NCBI GenBank assembly: GCA_963169045.1
Contig: CAUJDF010000047.1
Span: 1-42,125, forward strand
Direction of reading: 5' to 3'
Length of the DNA: 42,125 bases
Origin: Myxococcota bacterium
GTDB lineage: Bacteria > Myxococcota_A > Bradymonadia > UBA7976 > UBA1532
Shown: one piece after another, positions 7,234 to 38,001 of the stretch
Numbering within the stretch: position 1 is the first letter of the stretch
Layout: each line of letters begins with the position of its first letter
Made by a program: the position numbers and the translations under genes
The notes under the pieces: generated by a model
What the model was told of the DNA's origin: nothing
What the model saw: the letters and a program-made list of their open reading frames with translations, nothing else
Databases searched by the model: none

Positions 7234-7330
7234 CCGTTAGCGAAATCGACTCAAGTCGCCGCATGCCGTTTCCGTCCTTCGGTGGGGGGTCGGCGATGCC
7301 CGCCGACCAGCACGGAGAGGCCACGGAAGC

Positions 7331-8605
7331 TTGAGCGCCCCCGAGGAACGGGTCTGTCCCCGCTGCCGACGGCCGGCCGACGACGGCGATCGCTGCTCGC
7401 ACGACGGCGCGTACTTCGTTGGCCGGCGGGCGCTCGAGGCCGTCGGTCGCGACGCGTACCTCGGCGCGTTCATCGCAGACCGCTATGCGGTCCTCGAGCG
7501 CGTCGGCGTCGGTGGCATGGGCACGGTCTACCGGGCCCGCGACGAGCGGACCGGCGAGCGGGTCGCCATCAAGTTCCTGCGCGACGAGTACGCCGGTCAT
7601 CGCTCCATCCGCCGTCGCTTCGTGCGGGAGGCCGAGGCGGGGGCGTCCCTCGACCACCCGAACATCGTGCGGCTCACCGACTTCGGCATCGATGCGGACC
7701 GCACGCTCTACATCGTGATGGAGTTCGTCGAGGGTTGGACTCTCCGAGAAGAAGTCAATCGAAACGGACCCTTCTCGGTGGAGCAGGCACGGCGGCTCGC
7801 CGGTCAGCTGCTGGTGGCGCTCGCCGCCGCCCACGAAGCGGGCCTCGTGCACCGCGACCTCAAGCACGACAACATCATGTTCCACGGCAGCCGCGCCGAC
7901 TTCACCGCGCGCATCCTCGACTTCGGCGTGGTGAAGATCACCGCGGCCGACGCCGGGGAGTCCGGTGGGGAGCTGACGGCGAACGGCGCCATGGTCGGCT
8001 CGCCGAGCTACATGAGCCCGGAGCAGCTCCGCGGCCTCGACGTGGGGCCGCCCGCCGACCTCTACGCACTGGCGGTGGTCATCTACGAGAGCCTCACCGC
8101 GCGGCGGCTCTTTCCGGCATCGAACTACGACGCGCTGCTCCGGGCCGGCGCCCGGCGCGAGGCGCCGCCGCTGGACCGCAACGGGCGGGGCGAGGCGGTC
8201 CCGCCGGCGTTCGACCGCTGGCTGCGGCGGGCGCTCGAGCACGATCCCGCCGACCGCTACCCGGGCGCGCAGACGATGCTGCTGGCGCTCGAGCAGGCCT
8301 TCGAGGAGATGGGCGGCGGAGCGTGGCACGGCGACCTCCTCGCCGACGCGCCCGGCACCGTCCCGCCGGAGGTCTATCGGCGCGAGCTCGCCGAGCCGCC
8401 GACGCCCTCGCCGCCGCCCCTCGCCCAGCGACCGGCCACGCCGACGCCCACCGCGCCGATGCTCACGACCCCCATCCTCTCGGCGACCGATCCGCCGGGC
8501 CCGTCCGCGGAGGCGTCGCCGCCGCGGAAGCGCGGGTGGCTGCCCGTCGGCGCCTTCGCCGCGGCGGCCCTCGTCGCCTTCGCGGCGCTGCGCCTGCTGC
8601 GTTAG
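7331..8605 (+). CDS. Ser/Thr protein kinase with N-terminal zinc ribbon and C-terminal membrane helix
   Basis: 424 residues from a TTG codon; no ATG or GTG exists in frame back to the stop at 7238, and a GGAAG stands just before the TTG. Residues 9-24 hold C-x2-C and C-S-H, a small zinc-ribbon-like motif. The kinase domain (about 51-310) has the Gly loop GVGGMG, VAIK with Lys81, HRD at 174-176 and DFG with Asp197, followed by SPEQ. The catalytic loop reads K-H-D-N where K-P-x-N is usual. A Pro/Thr-rich linker leads to one C-terminal membrane helix (about 402-420) with almost nothing beyond, so this kinase is anchored by its tail and has no outside sensor, unlike the kinase at 1224. Its gene is followed after 55 bases by the aminopeptidase, which seems to have its own promoter. 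Confidence 0.9.
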   Translation: MSAPEERVCPRCRRPADDGDRCSHDGAYFVGRRALEAVGRDAYLGAFIADRYAVLERVGVGGMGTVYRARDERTGERVAIKFLRDEYAGHRSIRRRFVREAEAGASLDHPNIVRLTDFGIDADRTLYIVMEFVEGWTLREEVNRNGPFSVEQARRLAGQLLVALAAAHEAGLVHRDLKHDNIMFHGSRADFTARILDFGVVKITAADAGESGGELTANGAMVGSPSYMSPEQLRGLDVGPPADLYALAVVIYESLTARRLFPASNYDALLRAGARREAPPLDRNGRGEAVPPAFDRWLRRALEHDPADRYPGAQTMLLALEQAFEEMGGGAWHGDLLADAPGTVPPEVYRRELAEPPTPSPPPLAQRPATPTPTAPMLTTPILSATDPPGPSAEASPPRKRGWLPVGAFAAAALVAFAALRLLR

Positions 8606-28427: not shown

Positions 28428-28523
28428 GACGATCGGCAGACGACGCGGCGCGCGGCCGCGTCGCGCGCCGGTGGCACGGGCGTTGCGACCTCCGCGGACG
28501 GACGCTGCGGAAGGGAGCCCGCC

Positions 28524-29888
28524 ATGTTTCTGGAGCGGATTCGATCCGAGGGGCTCGCGCACTGGTCCTACGTCGTCGGGGACCAGGAGCGGGCCTTCGT
28601 CGTCGATCCGCGCCGCGACTGCCGCGTCTATCTCGACGTGGCATCCCGCCACGGCGCGGTGATCACGCACATCTTCGAGACGCACGGCTATGAGGACCTG
28701 CTGCTCGGATCGCCCGAGCTGGCGGCGCTCACGCGCGCGCCGATCCTGCGCGGCCGACGCTCGACCCATGCTTACGGGGACGTGGCGCGCGAGGGCGACG
28801 TGTTCGCGCTCGGCGACCTGAAGGTGCGCGTGCTCGAGACGCCGGGGCACACGGCGGACGGCCTGTGCCTCGTGCTTTTCCACGGCGCCGACGACCCGGT
28901 CGCCGTCTTCACCGGCGACACGCTGCTCGTCGGCGGCGTCGGCCGCACCGACCTCTTCGCCGGGCAGGAGGAAGAGCTCGCGGGTCGGCTGCACGACAGC
29001 CTGCACGGCAAGCTCTTCACGCTCGGCGATCACGTGGTGGTCTACCCTGCCCACGGCGCCGGCAGCGTGTGCGGCGGCGGGCTCGTCGACCGCGAGCTCA
29101 CGACGCTCGGTTACGAGCGGCGGCACAACCGGCTGGCGTCCGTGCTCGACCGCGACGCGTTCGTGCGGCGCGCCCTCGCGGAGCGGCGTCCGTGGCCGCC
29201 GTACTTCCGCGAAATGGAGCGCCTGAACCGCGCGGGCGCGCCGGCGCTCGTGGCGCCCCCCGTCCCCGCGCCGCTGTCGGCGGACCAGCTCGCCGACCTG
29301 CTCGGCCAGGGCGCGGCGGTGGTCGACACGCGCAGCCCCGAGGCGTTCGCGGGGGCGTATATCCCCGATTCCATCGCGCTTCCCCTGGACATGCTCGCCG
29401 CGTACGCCGGCTGGTTCCTGGCGTACGACCGGCCGATCGCGCTGGTCGTCGAGCACTCCGAGGACGCCGAGAAGGCGGTGCGGCAGCTGGCGCGCGTCGG
29501 CTACGACGACGTCGCCGGCTTCCTGCGCGGCGGCATGCGCGCCTGGGAGGCCAGCGGCCGGCGCTACGCGTGCATCCCCGCCATCTATGCGGGCGACCTC
29601 GAGCGGCGCCTGCAGACCGGACCCGACTTCACGCTGCTCGACGTGCGCACCCGCGAGGAGTTCGAGGCCGGACACCTGCCGGAGGCGAAGCAAGTCTTCC
29701 TCGGCGAGCTGCCGGACCGCCTCGGCGAGATCCCGCGCGACCAGCCGGTCGTCACATTCTGCGGCAGCGGCCGGCGCGCGATCACCGCCGCCTCGCTGCT
29801 CAAGCGCTTCGGCTACGACGACGTCGCCGACTGCTTCGGATCCATGGCCGCCTGCGCCGCCATCGCCTGCCAGATCGTCGCCGGCTGA
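28524..29888 (+). CDS. metallo-beta-lactamase persulfide-dioxygenase-like protein fused to two rhodanese domains
   Basis: 454 residues; GGAAGGGAG before the ATG. The N-terminal 230 residues are an ETHE1-type fold. The usual H-x-H-x-D-H is changed to H-G-Y-E-D-L at His54, but the three iron ligands of ETHE1 correspond to His54, the His of TPGHT and the Asp of FTGDTLL, all present, so iron binding and oxidation of glutathione- or low-molecular-weight persulfides remain plausible. The rhodanese domain at about 250-360 has no catalytic Cys (VVEHSEDA at the active loop). The second (about 365-454) has CGSGRR with Cys413 and should be active. The layout recalls CstB-like sulfide-detoxification proteins. 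No sulfide sensor or Sqr gene is nearby. Confidence 0.92.
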   Translation: MFLERIRSEGLAHWSYVVGDQERAFVVDPRRDCRVYLDVASRHGAVITHIFETHGYEDLLLGSPELAALTRAPILRGRRSTHAYGDVAREGDVFALGDLKVRVLETPGHTADGLCLVLFHGADDPVAVFTGDTLLVGGVGRTDLFAGQEEELAGRLHDSLHGKLFTLGDHVVVYPAHGAGSVCGGGLVDRELTTLGYERRHNRLASVLDRDAFVRRALAERRPWPPYFREMERLNRAGAPALVAPPVPAPLSADQLADLLGQGAAVVDTRSPEAFAGAYIPDSIALPLDMLAAYAGWFLAYDRPIALVVEHSEDAEKAVRQLARVGYDDVAGFLRGGMRAWEASGRRYACIPAIYAGDLERRLQTGPDFTLLDVRTREEFEAGHLPEAKQVFLGELPDRLGEIPRDQPVVTFCGSGRRAITAASLLKRFGYDDVADCFGSMAACAAIACQIVAG

Positions 29889-29927: not shown

Positions 29928-29986
29928 TAGAGCGTTCCCGGCGAAAAAAGTTACGCTGACGGCGGAACTCGTCGTCGGGGGGACGC

Positions 29987-32767
29987 ATGCGGAGGGGGCG
30001 CATCGCCGCGTTGCTGGCGGCAGGGCTGGCGTGCGGCGCGTGTGGGGAGGACGGCGGCGGCGCGACGTCGCCGGACGCGGCCACGGTCGTCGGTGGCCCC
30101 GACGCCGGACGCGCCGACCCCGACGCGGTGCTCATCGACGCCGACGCCGGGCCCGGCGACTCGGATGCGGCGCTCGGCGACCCCGACGCCGGCCCGGCGG
30201 ACCCCGACGCCGGCGGAGACGCGGACGCCGCAGCGCCGCCCGACGCCGCGCCGCCGCCGCCCCTTCCGCCGCTCGCGTTCAACGAGATCGACTGCCGCGG
30301 CGAGGAGTGGATCGAGCTGGTCAACGCCGGCGACACGCCCATCGACCTGACGGGCTGGACGCTCACCGACGACCCCGCGGACCCGGCGCGCGCCCGCGCC
30401 CTCGCCGGCGCGCTCGCCCCCAACGCCTTCGCGCTCGTCGAGGCGCTGCCGTTCGGCATCGGCTGCGGCGACGAGACCTTGCACCTGCTGGCCCCCGACG
30501 GCCGCGCGGGCGACACCGTCGCGGACTTCGACCCGCCGCGCGGCTCGACGTGGGGCCGCCTGCCCGACGGCGCCGGCCCCTGGCAGGTCACGCGCCCCAC
30601 CCCCGGCGCGCCCAACGCCGCGCCCGGCACGCCCGTCGTGCGCCTCAACGAGGTCGACTGCCACGGCCGCGAGTGGGTGGAGCTCGTGAACGTCGGCGAC
30701 GGCGCCGCCGACCTGACCGGCTGGGTGCTGACCGACGACCTCGAGGACGCCGAGATCGCCCACCCGCTCGACTTCGTGCTCGACCCCGGCGAGATCCGGC
30801 AGGTCGAGCAGCAGACGCGCCGCGAGGACGGCTTCCGCTTCGGCATCGCCTGCGGCGCCGACGTGGTGCGCCTCGTCGATCCGCAGGGCGCCGTCGTCGA
30901 CGAGGTGCTCATGGGCGAGGCGCCCGCCGCCTTCTCGTGGGGCCGGCTGCCCGACGGCGAGGGCGACTGGACGGCCACCGACAAGACGGCCGAGGCGCCG
31001 AACCGGCCGCCCACGGCGCCGGCGGGGTCGCTCTTCGATCCCGACCGTCCGTTCCAGGTCGACCTGACCCTCGATCCGGCGGCGCTGGACGCGCTGGCGG
31101 CCCAGCCGCGCGAGTACGTGCCCGCCACGATGCAGATGACCGTCGGCGACGAGGTCGTCGGGCCGATCCCCGTCGGCATCCACATCAAGGGGCGCGCCGG
31201 CAGCTTCCGCACCATGGACCGGAAGCCGGCGTTCAAGGTGAAGATCGACTTCACGGACGACGAGCAGCGTCTCTTCGGCCTGAAGAAGCTCACCTTCAAC
31301 AACCAGGTGCAGGATCCGTCGCTCATTCACGAGTTCGCGGCGTACTCGATCTTCCGCGAGGCGGGTGTGCCCGCGCCGCGCGTCGGATACGCCTTCCTGC
31401 GCATCAACGGCGCCGTCTACGGTCTGTACGCGCACATCGAGACGTACGACGACGTGATGCTCGACCGGCACTTTGCGTCGACGCAGCATCTGTTCGAGGG
31501 GGCGTACGGTCAGGATCTCTTCCACGCGCACGTGGCGCAGCTCGACCCGGACGAGGGCGATGCCGAGGATCGCAGCGATCTGCAGGCGATCACGACGCTG
31601 ATGGAGGCGCCGCCCCCGGAGGGCTTCTATGCGGCCACGCAGCACCTGGTGAACTGGCCGCTCGTCCTGCGCACGATGGCGGCCGAGGTGTGGATCGGCC
31701 ACTGGGACGGCTATGCACCCACGCGAAACAACTACTATTTCCACTTCGACGAAGGCGGGCGGTTGAGCCTGATGCCGTGGGGCACGGACCAGACGTTCGC
31801 GTCGCACCTCGGCTGGTACGACGGGCGCGGGCGCATGCTCGAGGCCTGCCGGCTGGACCGGCAGTGCCTGGCGGCCTACGAGCGCGCGCTGGACGAGGTG
31901 GACGCGGCGGTCGATCGCCTGCCGCTCGAGGAGCGCATCACCGAGCTCACGGCGACGCTGGCGCCCTGGTCCGCCCAGGACGTGCGCCGCGAGTACGACG
32001 CGAACCACATCGCCCAGTCGGTGCAGGCAACGCTGGCCTTCCTGGAGCGGCGACGCGCCGACGCCGGCGCCCTGCTCGCCTGCCTGAACGGCCCCGACGC
32101 GGATCGCGACGGCGACGGCTTCCCGTGCACGCGCGATTGCAGCAACGACGACCCGGACGTGTACCCGGGCGCGCCTGAGACGTGCGGCGACAACGTCGAC
32201 AACGACTGCAGCGGCGTGCCCGACGACGCGCTCGAGTGCCCGGACTGCCGCGAGGTGTGGCGCGGCGCCCACCGCTACCTCGTCTGCCCGACGCCGCGCC
32301 CCTTCGCCGACGTCGCCCAGCACTGCCTGAACGCCGGCGCCGCGCCGCTCATCATCGACGCCGCCAACGAGAACGCCTGGATCCTGGCCCAGGCGATGGC
32401 CGTCCGGCGCCAGTCGTACTGGATCCCGCTCACCGACGTCGCCACCGAAGGCCGCTTCGTCTGGCACGACGGCAGCGCCCCGGCGTTCACGAGCTGGAAC
32501 GGCGGCGAGCCGAACAACGCCGGCAACGAGGACTGCACCCAGTCGCTCGACGGCGGCCGCTGGAACGACGTGCCGTGCGGCCACCGCTACGGCGTCATCT
32601 GCGAGGACCCCTGCCCCGCCGGCCTCGACGAGGACGGCGACGGCTTCGGCCGCTGCGGCCCCGACTGCGACGACGGGAACCCGGCCGCGCACCCCGGCGC
32701 CCCCGAGATTTGCCGCAACGGCGTCGACGAGGACTGCAGCGGCGTGCCGGACGACGGCTGCCCGTAG
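29987..32767 (+). CDS. surface lipoprotein: two lamin-tail domains, CotH kinase, Ca-loop segments and C-type lectin domain
   Basis: 926 residues. A lipoprotein-like signal (Cys16 or Cys19) and an Asp/Ala/Pro linker (to about 90) precede two lamin-tail domains (96-211 and 217-344; NEIDC, EWIELVN, LTGWTLTDD, and the paralogous NEVDC set). Residues about 355-700 are a CotH-type kinase: HIKGRAGSF, FNNQVQDPS, then D574 in GHWDGY with N581-N582, and D601 in PWGTDQTF, the positions expected for ATP-Mg. Then comes a D-R-D-G-D-G metal-binding segment with paired Cys (702-747), a C-type lectin domain (753-875) with EPN (841-843) and WND (859-861), the calcium and mannose-type signature, and a second metal-binding segment at the end. 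A -10-like TACGCT lies at 29952. It should sit on the cell surface; sugar binding and protein phosphorylation are inferences. Confidence 0.88.
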   Translation: MRRGRIAALLAAGLACGACGEDGGGATSPDAATVVGGPDAGRADPDAVLIDADAGPGDSDAALGDPDAGPADPDAGGDADAAAPPDAAPPPPLPPLAFNEIDCRGEEWIELVNAGDTPIDLTGWTLTDDPADPARARALAGALAPNAFALVEALPFGIGCGDETLHLLAPDGRAGDTVADFDPPRGSTWGRLPDGAGPWQVTRPTPGAPNAAPGTPVVRLNEVDCHGREWVELVNVGDGAADLTGWVLTDDLEDAEIAHPLDFVLDPGEIRQVEQQTRREDGFRFGIACGADVVRLVDPQGAVVDEVLMGEAPAAFSWGRLPDGEGDWTATDKTAEAPNRPPTAPAGSLFDPDRPFQVDLTLDPAALDALAAQPREYVPATMQMTVGDEVVGPIPVGIHIKGRAGSFRTMDRKPAFKVKIDFTDDEQRLFGLKKLTFNNQVQDPSLIHEFAAYSIFREAGVPAPRVGYAFLRINGAVYGLYAHIETYDDVMLDRHFASTQHLFEGAYGQDLFHAHVAQLDPDEGDAEDRSDLQAITTLMEAPPPEGFYAATQHLVNWPLVLRTMAAEVWIGHWDGYAPTRNNYYFHFDEGGRLSLMPWGTDQTFASHLGWYDGRGRMLEACRLDRQCLAAYERALDEVDAAVDRLPLEERITELTATLAPWSAQDVRREYDANHIAQSVQATLAFLERRRADAGALLACLNGPDADRDGDGFPCTRDCSNDDPDVYPGAPETCGDNVDNDCSGVPDDALECPDCREVWRGAHRYLVCPTPRPFADVAQHCLNAGAAPLIIDAANENAWILAQAMAVRRQSYWIPLTDVATEGRFVWHDGSAPAFTSWNGGEPNNAGNEDCTQSLDGGRWNDVPCGHRYGVICEDPCPAGLDEDGDGFGRCGPDCDDGNPAAHPGAPEICRNGVDEDCSGVPDDGCP

Positions 32768-32779
32768 GCGGCCCGCGCC

Positions 32780-35700
32780 CTACTCCCAACCCCGGAGGCG
32801 CCGGCGGAGCGCCTGCCACCGGCGCAACAGCGAGTCGCGGCGCGTCGTCACCAGGATCATCGCGCCGAGGATCAGCAGGCCCGACACCGACATCACGAGG
32901 AAGCCGACGCGGTGGTCGCGCAGCGAGGCGTGGACCAGGTTCGCGATGACGTCGAGCGTGAGGAAGCCGGTGCCGAGCGCCAGGAAGGCGCGGACGCGCA
33001 GCATCATGCCGGCGGCGACCCCCAGCAGGCAGACTGCGCCGAAGACGATGGCGTAGGTGCCGTCGGCGGCGGGGCCCACCTGCATCGCGAGCTGGATCGC
33101 GGCAGGCACGTACAGCAGCAGACCGCCGAGGACGCGCACGCGCTTGCGCTGCACCGGGCCGAGCGCGCGCGAGTACAGCTGCGCGAGCAGGATCAGGAAG
33201 AGGCCGAGCAGCGCCAGATACACCTCGACGCCGTCCACGTCCTCGGCGAAGGCCACGTTCAGCAGCGCGAGGTTGCCGGCGAGGGCGGCGAGCGCGCCGA
33301 ACCCGCGGCTGCGCTCGACGAGGGCCAGCGCGCCGTAGAGCAGGCCCGAGCCGGCGGCGGTGGCGGCGCCCGTCCACGCGTCCTCGCCGCCGAGCAGCAC
33401 GCCGGCGGCGATGGGGAGGAGCGCGGCGAAGCGGCGCACGGCGTCGGCGACGGGCGGCACGCCGGCGCGCCGGGCGACGACGACGACGCCCACGAGCGCG
33501 AAGCCGAAGACGAGCAGCGCCACGGCGTCGGCCTCCGCGGGCCACTCCGGGACGACGCGGGTGCGATAGAGGCCGTAGGCCGCCGCGAGCGCGGCCTGCA
33601 CGAGGTACACGTGCCGCGGCGTCCGCTCGCGCCACGCCGCGTGCGCGCCGACGAGCGTCAGGAGCGCCAGCGCCGCCAGCGCCGTCTCGGGCACCGGCGC
33701 CCGGCCCGTCGCCAGCGGCGCCAGCGCGGCGCAGGTCGCGAGCAGCAGCGCGTCGCGTCCGAACCGTGCGCCCGTCGGACGCCGGCGACCGTGCGTGTGG
33801 GCGAGCGCCGCCACCGCCGCGAGCGCGAGCGACGCGGGGGCCGCCGCCTCCAGGCCCGGCGACGGCAGCGCGGCCCAGGCCACCGCCGCCGCGCCGGCCA
33901 GCAGCCAGCCCGCCGCCGTGCCCGAGGCCGACAGCGGGCCGCGCCACTGCGAGGCGCCCGCCAGCAGCGTCGCCGCCGCCAGCGCCAGCGTGGCGCAGAC
34001 CGACGGCGTGAGCGCACCGGCGCCGGCGCGATCGAGGGTCGCCGTCGCCGCCGCGGTGGCGTCGGCGAGGCCGCCCGCCGCCAGCGCGTACGCCACGCCG
34101 CCGCCGAGGCACACGAGCGCCAGCAGGTGTAGCCGCGTCCAGCGCGCCTCCCCGTCGAGCGCCGGCGCGCCCCCGTCCGCCGCCAGCGCCGGCCGGCGGA
34201 GCGGCCCTGCGGCCAGCAGCACGAGCGCCAGCGCCGCCGCGCCGAGCCCGGGGCCCACCGCGGCGGGGATGGCGCCCCCGGCGTGCGCGTGGGCGTGCAC
34301 CACGAGGAGCGCGCCGGCCCCCAGCGCCCGCTCTGCCCCCGCCGGCCCACGCGCCGCCGCCAACAGCAATCCGACGACGACGACGATCGCCGCCGGTCCG
34401 ATCGCCGCCCGCTCGACGCCGAGCACCGTCAGCCCCGTGGCGGCCACGCCCGTCCAGAGCCGCAGCACGTCCGCGCGCTCACCGCCCCACGCGGCGAGGC
34501 GCCGCCGCAGCCACGGCCAGCGCGCGAGGACCGCCGCGCCCGCCGCCAGCAGCGTCGCGGCGGCGCCGAGCCCGAGGGCGGCGCGGTCGATCAGGGACAG
34601 CGCCGTCACCCCCGGTGGCAACCACACCGTCGCCCGCGCGCTCGTCCCGTCGAGCGCCGCCGCCGCCTCCGGAGTCCAGAAGCCGTCGGGGTAAAGGCGC
34701 ACCAGCGCGGGGCCGAGCAGCCCGCCCTGCGCCGCCGCCAGCGCCGCCGCCGGCAACAGCAGCGCCGCCGCGACATGACGCAGCGCGTCGAACCCGCGCG
34801 CCCTCGCCAGCAGCGCGGCGGCCAGCGCGGCCCCCAGCGGCGCCAGCGGCGGCACCGTCGTCAGGAGGCGCATGCCGTCGCCCCATCCGACCGTGGCCGC
34901 CTTGTGCAAGAGGAGCGCGCCGACGACCGCCACGCCGACGTCCGCCACGTCCGCGAAGCGCGGCTTCGCGCCGGGACGCCCGAGCGCCGCGGCAAGCGCC
35001 GGGCCCCACCGCGCGAGCGCGCGGCCCGCGAGCCAGATCGCCGCCAGCGCCAGCGTCATCCGCAGCGCCGTCGTCGCCGGCGGGCGCTCCCGCCCGATGC
35101 GGTACACCACCGCGGCGAGCGCGCCGAGCACGCCCACCGCTGCGAGCGTGACCGACGAGGCGCGCAGGCCGAACGCCGCGAAGCCGGGCAGCGCGAACGC
35201 GGCGAGGCCCGCGACCACCAGCAGGAGCGCCGCCGCCACCACGAGCGCGCGATCCGCCTCGACGCGGTCGCCGAGCCAGAGGCCGATCTGCGCCACCGCG
35301 AGCGCCGCCAGCGGCAGCGCCGCCGCCGCGAACGCGTCGAACAGCGCGCGTCCCCGCCCGCCGTACGGCAGCGTCACGAAGTCGAGGAACCAGCGCCCCT
35401 CCACGGCCTCGGCGGGTGCGCGGGCCGCGGCCACGAGCGCGAAGGCCGCCGCGACGCCGGCGAGCGCCAGGGCCGCCTGCCCGGCGGACAGCGGCATGGC
35501 CCAGGTGTACGCCGCGACGGCCAGCCCCAGGGCGCCGGCGAAGGCCACCGCGCGGCTGCGGTCCCGCGGCGCGCGCGCCAGCAGCGTCGCTCCCGCGACG
35601 GCCGGCGGCAGCGGATCAAGCAGAATCCCGAGCGGAATCGCGCAGATGGCCGCGATCAGCGACACGTCGTCGAGCGCGTGGGTCGCGCGCAGGCGCGCCG

Positions 35701-37420
35701 CGGCGCCGTACAGGACCGCGGCGCCGGCCAGCGCCGCCCCGAGCCACGCCGGCGATCCCGGATCGAGCGTCCACAGCCCGAAGACGAACGCCGCGGCGCC
35801 GAGGAAGTGAAGGCCCGGTCGCGCGCCGAGCGCGCTCGCGTGCGCCGCCAGCGCGACGAGGCCGGCGGCCGCCGTCGCCGCGAAGCCCGGCGCCGCCTCG
35901 AGGATCACCGCGGCCACCGGCGCCGCCGCGCCCGCCGCCACGCCCCAGCCGATGACGAGCGCCCGCGTCCGCGTCGGCCGGACGCGGGCCGCCCCCAAAA
36001 GCAGGAGCGCCGCCGCCACGGCCGCCGCGAACGCCCACCAGCCCGGCGCGTCCGGCGCCACGAGGCGCCCCGCGAGGGCCGCCGCCGCCAGCGACCAGGC
36101 CACGGCCGCGTGGAGGGCCGGCGGCCGCCGCCACGCCGACGCCCCGAACACCGCCGCCGCCAGGGCCGGCGCTGCCGCCGACGCGAGGTCGAGGTCCGGC
36201 CGCAGCCCCGGCGCGAGCGCGAACGCACCCGCCACACCGCCGAGCGCCGCCGCCGCCACGCACGCCAGCGCCGCGATCTCGATCGTCGGCGCGAGGTGCG
36301 GCAGACGGCGCCGCAGCCAGGCCCGCCGCGCCTCGAACGCCAGCACCGCGCCGACGCCCAGCCCCCACAGCCCGACGCCGGCGAAGGCCTCCGTCCCCGG
36401 CACGAACGCGTCGCGGTCGAGCGCGCCCGGCGTGCCCGGCGCGCCGAAGAGCGCGAAGAGGCCGAGCGCCGCCGCCCCGTAGACCGCCGTCGCCAGCGCG
36501 CCGAGGGTGCCCGCTGCCACGCGCCCGCCCGCCACCACCGACAGCACGCCGACCGCCGGCAGCAGCGCGCGTTGCCACGGATGAAGGTCGGCGGCCACCG
36601 GCAGCATCGCGAGCAGCGACGGCGCGAGGACGAGCCAGAGCCGCAAGCCCCCGACGTTCGCGTGCGTCCGACCGACGACGGCGAGCGTACCGGCCGCGAC
36701 CGCGAACGCACCGGCGCTCGCCCCGGCGCCCAGCGTCGACGACAGCGCGGCGAGCGCCGACAGCGCGACGAAGACCACCGGCAAGAGGCCGACGGCCAGG
36801 CCGCCGAGCACGCGCCCCGCCCGCGGCGAGCGCCGACCGACGAGGACGGAGAGCGCGACGAAGCCCGCGTGGTAGGTGAGCAGCGCGCCGGCGACGACGA
36901 GCTGCCGCGGCGCGCCCTCGAGCGTGCGCCAGGCCTCGCGCACGCCCATCACCGAGCCGGCGAGGACGAGCAGCGTGCCGATGAACCACCAGACGTACTC
37001 GTTCAGGAGCGCGCGCAGGCCCGGGCCCGCCGCGTCGCCCTCGTCGAGGGCCGCGACGGCCTCGACCGCGTCTTCGGGCCGCTCGGCGGCGGGTCCTTGC
37101 AGCGACCGGCGGAGGGCGGTGAGCCAGGGCGGCGGCCACCGCACCCGCGCGGCGGTCCGCGCCACGGCGTCCGCCCCGTCCTCGAGCCGCTGCGCCACGG
37201 AGCGCCCCGGCGGCGGCGCCACCACCGGCGGTAGCGTGCCCTCGAGCTCCGCCGCCTTCTCCGCGTCGAGGCGACCCTCGTCGCGCCACCGCGCCACCTG
37301 CCGGCGCAGGCGCGCCGCCGCCAGCGTCTCGAGATGCGCGTCGTCCTCGGGCAGGAGCGGGCCGCCGCAGTCGGGGCAGCTCGAGCCGCGGGCCCGACGG
37401 ACGCAGCGCAGACAGATCAC
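32780..37420 (-). CDS. very large polytopic membrane protein with N-terminal zinc ribbon, unknown function
   Basis: 1546 residues from a GTG with GGCGGAG 6 bases upstream; the frame stays open further upstream to 37642 but that part is Arg-rich. The first residues form a zinc ribbon: C3-x2-C6-x8-C15-x2-C18. A charged helical segment (about 28-65, RRQVARWRDEGRLDAEKAAEL) resembles the short soluble part before membrane helices in DUF2157/DUF2339-type proteins. From about residue 150 to 1530 the sequence is several dozen hydrophobic helices, Ala/Leu-rich, with short loops. A loop near residue 1042 holds H-A-H-A-H. No transporter signature or catalytic motif is recognisable. Convergent with the lectin-CotH gene, 12 bases apart, and divergent from the VOC gene. 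Confidence 0.8.
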   Translation of the reverse strand: MICLRCVRRARGSSCPDCGGPLLPEDDAHLETLAAARLRRQVARWRDEGRLDAEKAAELEGTLPPVVAPPPGRSVAQRLEDGADAVARTAARVRWPPPWLTALRRSLQGPAAERPEDAVEAVAALDEGDAAGPGLRALLNEYVWWFIGTLLVLAGSVMGVREAWRTLEGAPRQLVVAGALLTYHAGFVALSVLVGRRSPRAGRVLGGLAVGLLPVVFVALSALAALSSTLGAGASAGAFAVAAGTLAVVGRTHANVGGLRLWLVLAPSLLAMLPVAADLHPWQRALLPAVGVLSVVAGGRVAAGTLGALATAVYGAAALGLFALFGAPGTPGALDRDAFVPGTEAFAGVGLWGLGVGAVLAFEARRAWLRRRLPHLAPTIEIAALACVAAAALGGVAGAFALAPGLRPDLDLASAAAPALAAAVFGASAWRRPPALHAAVAWSLAAAALAGRLVAPDAPGWWAFAAAVAAALLLLGAARVRPTRTRALVIGWGVAAGAAAPVAAVILEAAPGFAATAAAGLVALAAHASALGARPGLHFLGAAAFVFGLWTLDPGSPAWLGAALAGAAVLYGAAARLRATHALDDVSLIAAICAIPLGILLDPLPPAVAGATLLARAPRDRSRAVAFAGALGLAVAAYTWAMPLSAGQAALALAGVAAAFALVAAARAPAEAVEGRWFLDFVTLPYGGRGRALFDAFAAAALPLAALAVAQIGLWLGDRVEADRALVVAAALLLVVAGLAAFALPGFAAFGLRASSVTLAAVGVLGALAAVVYRIGRERPPATTALRMTLALAAIWLAGRALARWGPALAAALGRPGAKPRFADVADVGVAVVGALLLHKAATVGWGDGMRLLTTVPPLAPLGAALAAALLARARGFDALRHVAAALLLPAAALAAAQGGLLGPALVRLYPDGFWTPEAAAALDGTSARATVWLPPGVTALSLIDRAALGLGAAATLLAAGAAVLARWPWLRRRLAAWGGERADVLRLWTGVAATGLTVLGVERAAIGPAAIVVVVGLLLAAARGPAGAERALGAGALLVVHAHAHAGGAIPAAVGPGLGAAALALVLLAAGPLRRPALAADGGAPALDGEARWTRLHLLALVCLGGGVAYALAAGGLADATAAATATLDRAGAGALTPSVCATLALAAATLLAGASQWRGPLSASGTAAGWLLAGAAAVAWAALPSPGLEAAAPASLALAAVAALAHTHGRRRPTGARFGRDALLLATCAALAPLATGRAPVPETALAALALLTLVGAHAAWRERTPRHVYLVQAALAAAYGLYRTRVVPEWPAEADAVALLVFGFALVGVVVVARRAGVPPVADAVRRFAALLPIAAGVLLGGEDAWTGAATAAGSGLLYGALALVERSRGFGALAALAGNLALLNVAFAEDVDGVEVYLALLGLFLILLAQLYSRALGPVQRKRVRVLGGLLLYVPAAIQLAMQVGPAADGTYAIVFGAVCLLGVAAGMMLRVRAFLALGTGFLTLDVIANLVHASLRDHRVGFLVMSVSGLLILGAMILVTTRRDSLLRRWQALRRRLRGWE

Positions 37421-37629
37421 GCGTCGCTCCGCCTTGACCCGGTCCCGCGTGGGGCGTAATCGGACCGGACCCACCCGGGAGGTCGCCGCATGAGGCTGTA
37501 CTCGTCGCCGGTTCGATCGCGGAAGGCGTCGATCGCCTTCTTTGCGCAGAACCTCCCACTCGCGAACGAGATCGTCAATCCGGCGAGCGAGGCGGCGCCG
37601 CACCTCGCCGCCCCGATCGGAGGGCAGTG

Positions 37630-38001
37630 ATGGCCGACGCACCGAAGCCGGGCTCCATCGCCTGGACGGATCTGACCGTCGAGGACGCGGAGGGCATCCG
37701 CGACTTCTACGCCGCCGTCACCGGCTGGACGCCGTCGCCCGTCGAGATGCAGGGCTACGCCGACTACGCGATGATTCCGCCCGGAGGCGAGGCGCCGGTG
37801 GCCGGCATCTGCCATGCGCGCGGAGCCAACGCCGCGCTGCCGCCGCAGTGGCTGCCGTACATCGTCGTGCCCGACCTCGCGGCCGCCGTTCAGACGTGCG
37901 TGGACCGCGGCGGCGCCGTCCTGGTATCGGGCGAGGGACGTCCCTTCGCCGTCTGTCGGGACCCCGCCGGCGCCGCCTTCGCCCTGTACGAGAGCCACTG
38001 A
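37630..38001 (+). CDS. VOC (glyoxalase/bleomycin-resistance fold) family protein
   Basis: 123 residues from ATG (a GTG immediately before it is possible), with GGAGGG upstream. It has the beta-alpha-beta-beta-beta repeats of VOC proteins: IAWTDLTVEDAEGIRDFY at the start, GWTPSP, YIVVPDLAAAV in the second half, DPAGAAFALYES at the end. It resembles the group annotated as CFP-30B/27-kDa-antigen-like. The substrate is unknown: VOC proteins include dioxygenases, glyoxalases and drug-binding proteins, and the metal ligands cannot be assigned with confidence. It stands alone, and the 259 bases after it hold nothing I recognise. Confidence 0.85.
   Translation: MADAPKPGSIAWTDLTVEDAEGIRDFYAAVTGWTPSPVEMQGYADYAMIPPGGEAPVAGICHARGANAALPPQWLPYIVVPDLAAAVQTCVDRGGAVLVSGEGRPFAVCRDPAGAAFALYESH

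Follow-up and report, generated by a model that had tools for sequence, protein, structure and literature searches.

The window analyzed here is a stretch of 42,125 nucleotides from a Myxococcota bacterium. At positions 29987 to 32767 of its forward strand lies an ATG-started ORF (stop codon at 32765 to 32767) encoding a putative lectin-CotH lipoprotein of 926 amino acids, with homologues at 51 to 53% identity. From the N to the C terminus, the protein consists of a signal peptide (nucleotides 29987 to 30043), an Asp/Ala/Pro-rich linker (30044 to 30271), a first lamin tail domain (LTD; about residues 96 to 199, boundaries set by eye; 30272 to 30583), a second LTD (residues 214 to 307, the best Pfam LTD stretch; 30626 to 30907), a CotH kinase-fold domain (about residues 353 to 701; 31043 to 32089), a MopE-type metal-binding motif (about residues 704 to 751; 32096 to 32239), a C-type lectin domain (CTLD; residues 753 to 876; 32243 to 32614), and a second MopE-type motif (about residues 880 to 926, with the Pfam match at 893 to 923; 32624 to 32764).

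All Pfam domains scored above their cutoffs: CotH (PF08757) at residues 398 to 690 with 115.6 bits (cutoff, 23.8), LTD (PF00932) in two stretches with 63.5 bits (cutoff, 34.3), Lectin_C (PF00059) at residues 771 to 873 with 52.3 bits, and the two Cu-binding_MopE motifs (PF11617) that stand on either side of the lectin domain with 55.2 bits. The original prediction had placed lamin tail, CotH, and C-type lectin domains on one protein, and Pfam detects all three; the MopE motifs are an addition to that prediction. An AlphaFold model of residues 353 to 926, built on 19 sequences (mean pLDDT, 88; pTM, 0.71), superimposed on the Bacillus cereus CotH structures (5jd9/5jda) over 333 residues with a Z score of 36.5 and a root mean square deviation of 2.5, in agreement with Foldseek. 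Its lectin part matched surfactant protein D (SP-D) over 119 residues (Z score, 19.8; root mean square deviation, 1.6), with Z scores of about 19 across SP-D and mannose-binding protein (MBP). At the sequence level, the CotH part matched 5jd9 with an E value of 1.6e-9 as a single sequence and 2.5e-25 with a profile, and the CTLD matched SP-D with an E value of 2e-17; the domain matches are thus far above chance level. The Pfam and structure matches rule out a chance or shadow ORF at 29987 to 32767; it is the antisense ORF at 29951 to 32692 that was rejected as a high-GC shadow, every Pfam match being on the forward strand.

Export is predicted from the signal peptide, which would place the protein on the cell surface. 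Neither of its two possible lipoboxes, GLAC (C16) and CGAC (C19), is canonical, whereas several homologues carry the canonical boxes LSAC, LAAC, and LTAC at the equivalent place. The earlier designation as a lipoprotein is therefore plausible, judged by the homologues, but not clear-cut for this protein's own box.

The gene appears to stand alone. The ORF upstream (28500 to 29888, forward strand), which ends 98 bases before it, encodes a metallo-beta-lactamase fold with two rhodanese stretches of the sulfur metabolism type, and the ORF downstream (32780 to 37642, reverse strand) encodes a protein of 1,620 amino acids with largely hydrophobic segments and no Pfam match at an E value of 0.001. 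Comparison with 11 homologous regions found neither neighbor near them, and an operon reading was dropped for that reason; these regions likewise yielded no substrate, partner, or conserved neighbor. The flanking genes speak neither for nor against the earlier suggestion that the protein could act on or recognize surface glycoproteins of self or prey. Elsewhere in the window, the forward-strand ORFs at 1026 to 2984 and 7241 to 8602 both match, at 39 to 40% identity, an ORF (L051, 632 to 2206) that adjoins a pair of CotH genes on another contig (G000:C94).

In mannose-type C-type lectins such as MBP-A, Ca2+ site 2 is formed by E185, N187, E193, N205, and D206. The lectin domain of the window's protein holds the full Ca2+ site 2 and sugar set: EPN, the mannose-type motif, at residues 841 to 843 (32507 to 32515) and WND at residues 859 to 861 (32561 to 32569), both where the original prediction had them, together with E848-D849-C850, of which E848 and D849 (32528 to 32533) align with E193 and D194 of MBP-A. 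All four conserved CTLD cysteines and the CTLD fold were also found by Pfam, CTLD comparison, and the model. QPD is the galactose-type counterpart of EPN, and exchange between the two is a known switch of sugar specificity. Among 27 distinct CTLDs on CotH-bearing ORFs, 17 have EPN and 5 have QPD, with the ED and WND residues mostly kept; paralogues differ between the two motifs, and those with two lectin domains may hold one of each (for example, L022). This pattern would be expected if sugar binding were real and its specificity under selection, without being proof of binding. Taken together, the complete Ca2+ site, the fold, and the EPN/QPD switching make the predicted Ca2+-dependent, mannose-type sugar binding well supported.

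The CotH domain gives a less uniform picture. Alignment with 5jd9 places the Asp of the query's WDGY motif (D574; 31706 to 31708) on the Asp of the CotH FDGF motif, making it the equivalent of the catalytic D228 of Bacillus subtilis CotH and D166 of PKA, and N582 (31730 to 31732) is the likely equivalent of PKA N171. The same alignment places the query's PWGTD on the CotH PWDYD, so that in W598-G599-T600-D601 (31778 to 31789) the glycine occupies the position of B. subtilis D251 and the aspartate follows two residues further on (PMC7821199, PMC12189002). This mapping of D251 to Gly599, rather than to D601, is based on the alignment with the B. cereus structure chain and on spacing: in that chain, 23 residues separate the FDGF Asp from the first Asp of WDYD, as between D228 and D251, and the Trp of WDYD is residue 245 when the chain is numbered from 0, in keeping with the Trp245 that stacks on adenine in B. 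cereus CotH (PMC12189002). The exchange is of consequence, since D228Q and D251A each abolish catalysis in B. subtilis CotH (PMC7821199).

The original prediction of a retained set of likely ATP-site residues in the CotH part thus holds for D574, N582, and W598, the last being the equivalent of B. cereus Trp245. It does not hold for the second essential aspartate: D601, which, like D574, is present in the sequence as had been noted, corresponds to the later Asp of WDxD and not to the proven one. In addition, the query has H448 where Arg is common in the CotH family. By Pfam score and by its kinase-like fold, the domain nevertheless belongs to PF08757, since a whole phylum-wide clade that scores as PF08757 shares the same change; activity cannot be assumed from this membership.

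The extent of this clade emerged from 122 distinct CotH domains collected across the phylum, the window's own genome included. At the positions of residues 599 and 601, 54 domains have Gly and Asp (GxD), 31 have Asp and Asp (DxD), 30 have Asp and Asn (DxN), and 3 have Ser and Asp, and AxD, DxE, DxG, and GxG occur once each; a single domain lacks Asp at both positions. When residue 599 is not Asp, residue 601 is Asp in 58 of 59 domains, compared with 31 of 63 when it is; these counts are not independent of one another. Within the GxD class, all 54 domains have Asp at the position of D574, and 52 of the 54 have Asn at that of N582. A maximum-likelihood tree gathered the GxD domains into one group (58 of 121 rows) with 99% SH-aLRT support, or 93% when the motif columns were left out, and it requires only three changes between Asp and other residues at position 599, indicating one main evolutionary event rather than many independent ones. 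Random decay of one copy is ruled out as the origin of Gly599 by the clade-wide pattern. That D574, N582, and D601 are conserved, which a dead site would not require, speaks for a functional nucleotide/metal site.

The joining of lectin and CotH domains, which had been thought an unusual combination, turned out to be common. CotH, MopE, and Lectin_C domains occur together in all 19 aligned homologues, the architecture recurs in many genera, and the window's genome alone, with 11 CotH matches and 10 lectin domains, has 6 of those lectin domains on four CotH proteins; uniqueness was accordingly rejected. Named metagenome-assembled genomes with related sequences are mostly Myxococcota, Deltaproteobacteria, or Proteobacteria. 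Lectin domains are found on 24 of the 54 GxD ORFs, the single AxD ORF, 3 of the 31 DxD ORFs, and none of the 30 DxN ORFs; the contrasts available to an independent-pairs test of lectin versus motif were too few for a decision. On the CotH tree, the presence of a lectin domain switches at least six times, and fusions were thus repeatedly gained or lost.

Two of the lectin-bearing relatives, each with two CTLDs, have clearly degraded kinase sites. In L056 (3663 to 6401; G000:C75), the equivalents of W598 and N582 are both Ala, and L112 (G006:C148) has Glu at 574, Arg at 582, and Gly at 598. By their residues, both are likely pseudokinases, and since their lectins are kept, catalysis would be dispensable in at least some lectin-CotH proteins. 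A different arrangement was observed in four genomes, in which two CotH genes lie in tandem on the same strand (L051, 2900 to 6474 on G000:C94; L113; L114; and L115): a copy that reads WDxD and has Glu in place of N582 precedes a lectin-bearing copy with Asn and WGxD, which in L115 reads SGMD. Further tandem pairs, L133 and L160, combine N/WDxD with E/WDxD copies. By analogy, such pairs could possibly consist of an active kinase and a partner, like Fam20C and Fam20A.

The reading we favor, at a probability of roughly 45%, is that of an exported, probably lipid-anchored CotH-family kinase aimed by its lectin and using a shifted metal-binding Asp. The C-terminal lectin would bind mannose-, fucose-, or GlcNAc-type sugars through a Ca2+ ion held by E841, N843, E848, N860, and D861. 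The CotH domain would bind ATP/Mg2+ with W598 on the adenine, D574 as the catalytic base, and two metal ligands, N582 and D601, the latter taking on the role of the lost D251, and glycans or glycoproteins held by the lectin would become phosphorylated. The lamin tail domains and MopE motifs may serve as spacers and metal-stiffened linkers. The complete Ca2+ site and fold of the CTLD, the close match to the CotH fold, the residue conservation within the GxD class, and its grouping in one clade argue for this reading, as do known kinases whose essential residues lie in unusual positions, such as POMK, an active sugar kinase that phosphorylates mannose in a glycan (PMC5142810). It is weakened by the inactivity of the B. 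subtilis D251A variant (PMC7821199), given the Gly at that position here, and by the broken sites of L056 and L112, the nonindependence of the counts, the lack of a substrate, partner, or conserved neighbor among the regions compared, and H448 in place of Arg.

The main rival, which we consider quite possible, is that the protein is instead an adhesin in which the lectin sticks to glycans and the CotH domain is a pseudokinase, its fold serving either as a scaffold (structural or nucleotide-binding) or to activate another CotH protein. The residue that Gly599 replaces is known to be indispensable in B. subtilis (PMC7821199), and L056 and L112 lost still more of the site while retaining their lectins. 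The pairing of lectin-bearing GxD and WDxD CotH genes in four genomes also recalls Fam20A, a pseudokinase activator paired with the kinase Fam20C (PMC5413348). Set against this are the absence of a CotH partner beside the window's gene and the near invariance of D574, N582, and Asp601, residues whose loss should be more frequent in an inert scaffold. An active CotH-type kinase whose CTLD is a protein-binding or structural module seems improbable to us: many CTLDs do not bind sugar, and some homologues have lost site residues (ADD/FDD in L068, no WND in L113 and L114), but all Ca2+ and sugar ligands are kept here and in most sister copies, and the EPN/QPD alternation is that of the sugar-specificity switch.

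The favored kinase reading can be extended to the clade as a whole, in that the metal-binding Asp might have shifted two residues along (from WDxD/N to WGxD) in a phylum-wide group of CotH kinases, with one part of this group fused to EPN/QPD-diversified C-type lectins to become glycan-directed extracellular kinases; we regard this wider proposal as less likely than not. Each domain on its own is already known, as is the fold, and the family is common in its bacterial group. No description of the lectin-CotH fusion was found in the literature searched, a scope outside which most subscription papers lie. The fusion and the WGxD active-site class therefore appear undescribed in the searchable literature, which is not proof of novelty. 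Bacterial extracellular phosphorylation is barely charted, and a lectin joined to a kinase fold offers a direct handle on the substrate, namely, whatever the lectin binds. The WGxD clade is also a test of whether an essential metal ligand can be relocated in kinase sites or whether many annotated "CotH kinases" are pseudokinases.

Among the closest known systems, the lectin-CotH paralogues and orthologues in the same bacterial family (for example, G000:C72, G012:C5, G008:C159, and G009:C293) share the CotH-MopE-CTLD architecture and WGxD at 50 to 53% identity; they differ in that many have a pair of CTLDs, in some cases an EPN and a QPD copy, and they have no common gene neighbors. Bacillus CotH (5JD9/5JDA; the spore coat kinase in B. 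subtilis) shares the fold, the catalytic Asp (D228/D574), the Trp (W245/W598), and an Asn, but identity is 18%, its D251 in WDYD corresponds to Gly599 with the Asp at +2, and the present putative lipoprotein carries additional LTD, MopE, and lectin domains. The CTLDs of collectins and the mannose receptor group (SP-D, MBP, and DC-SIGN) have the same EPN, ED, and WND residues, four cysteines, and fold, whereas the present one is bacterial, lacks a collagen or neck region, and is fused to a kinase fold. The Fam20/POMK kinases of the secretory pathway are likewise exported and belong to the same superfamily but are distant by sequence and lack a lectin fusion. Finally, a CotH-like gene lies beside Pel polysaccharide operons in nonsporulating streptococci (PMC7112168), placing CotH proteins in glycan settings outside spores.
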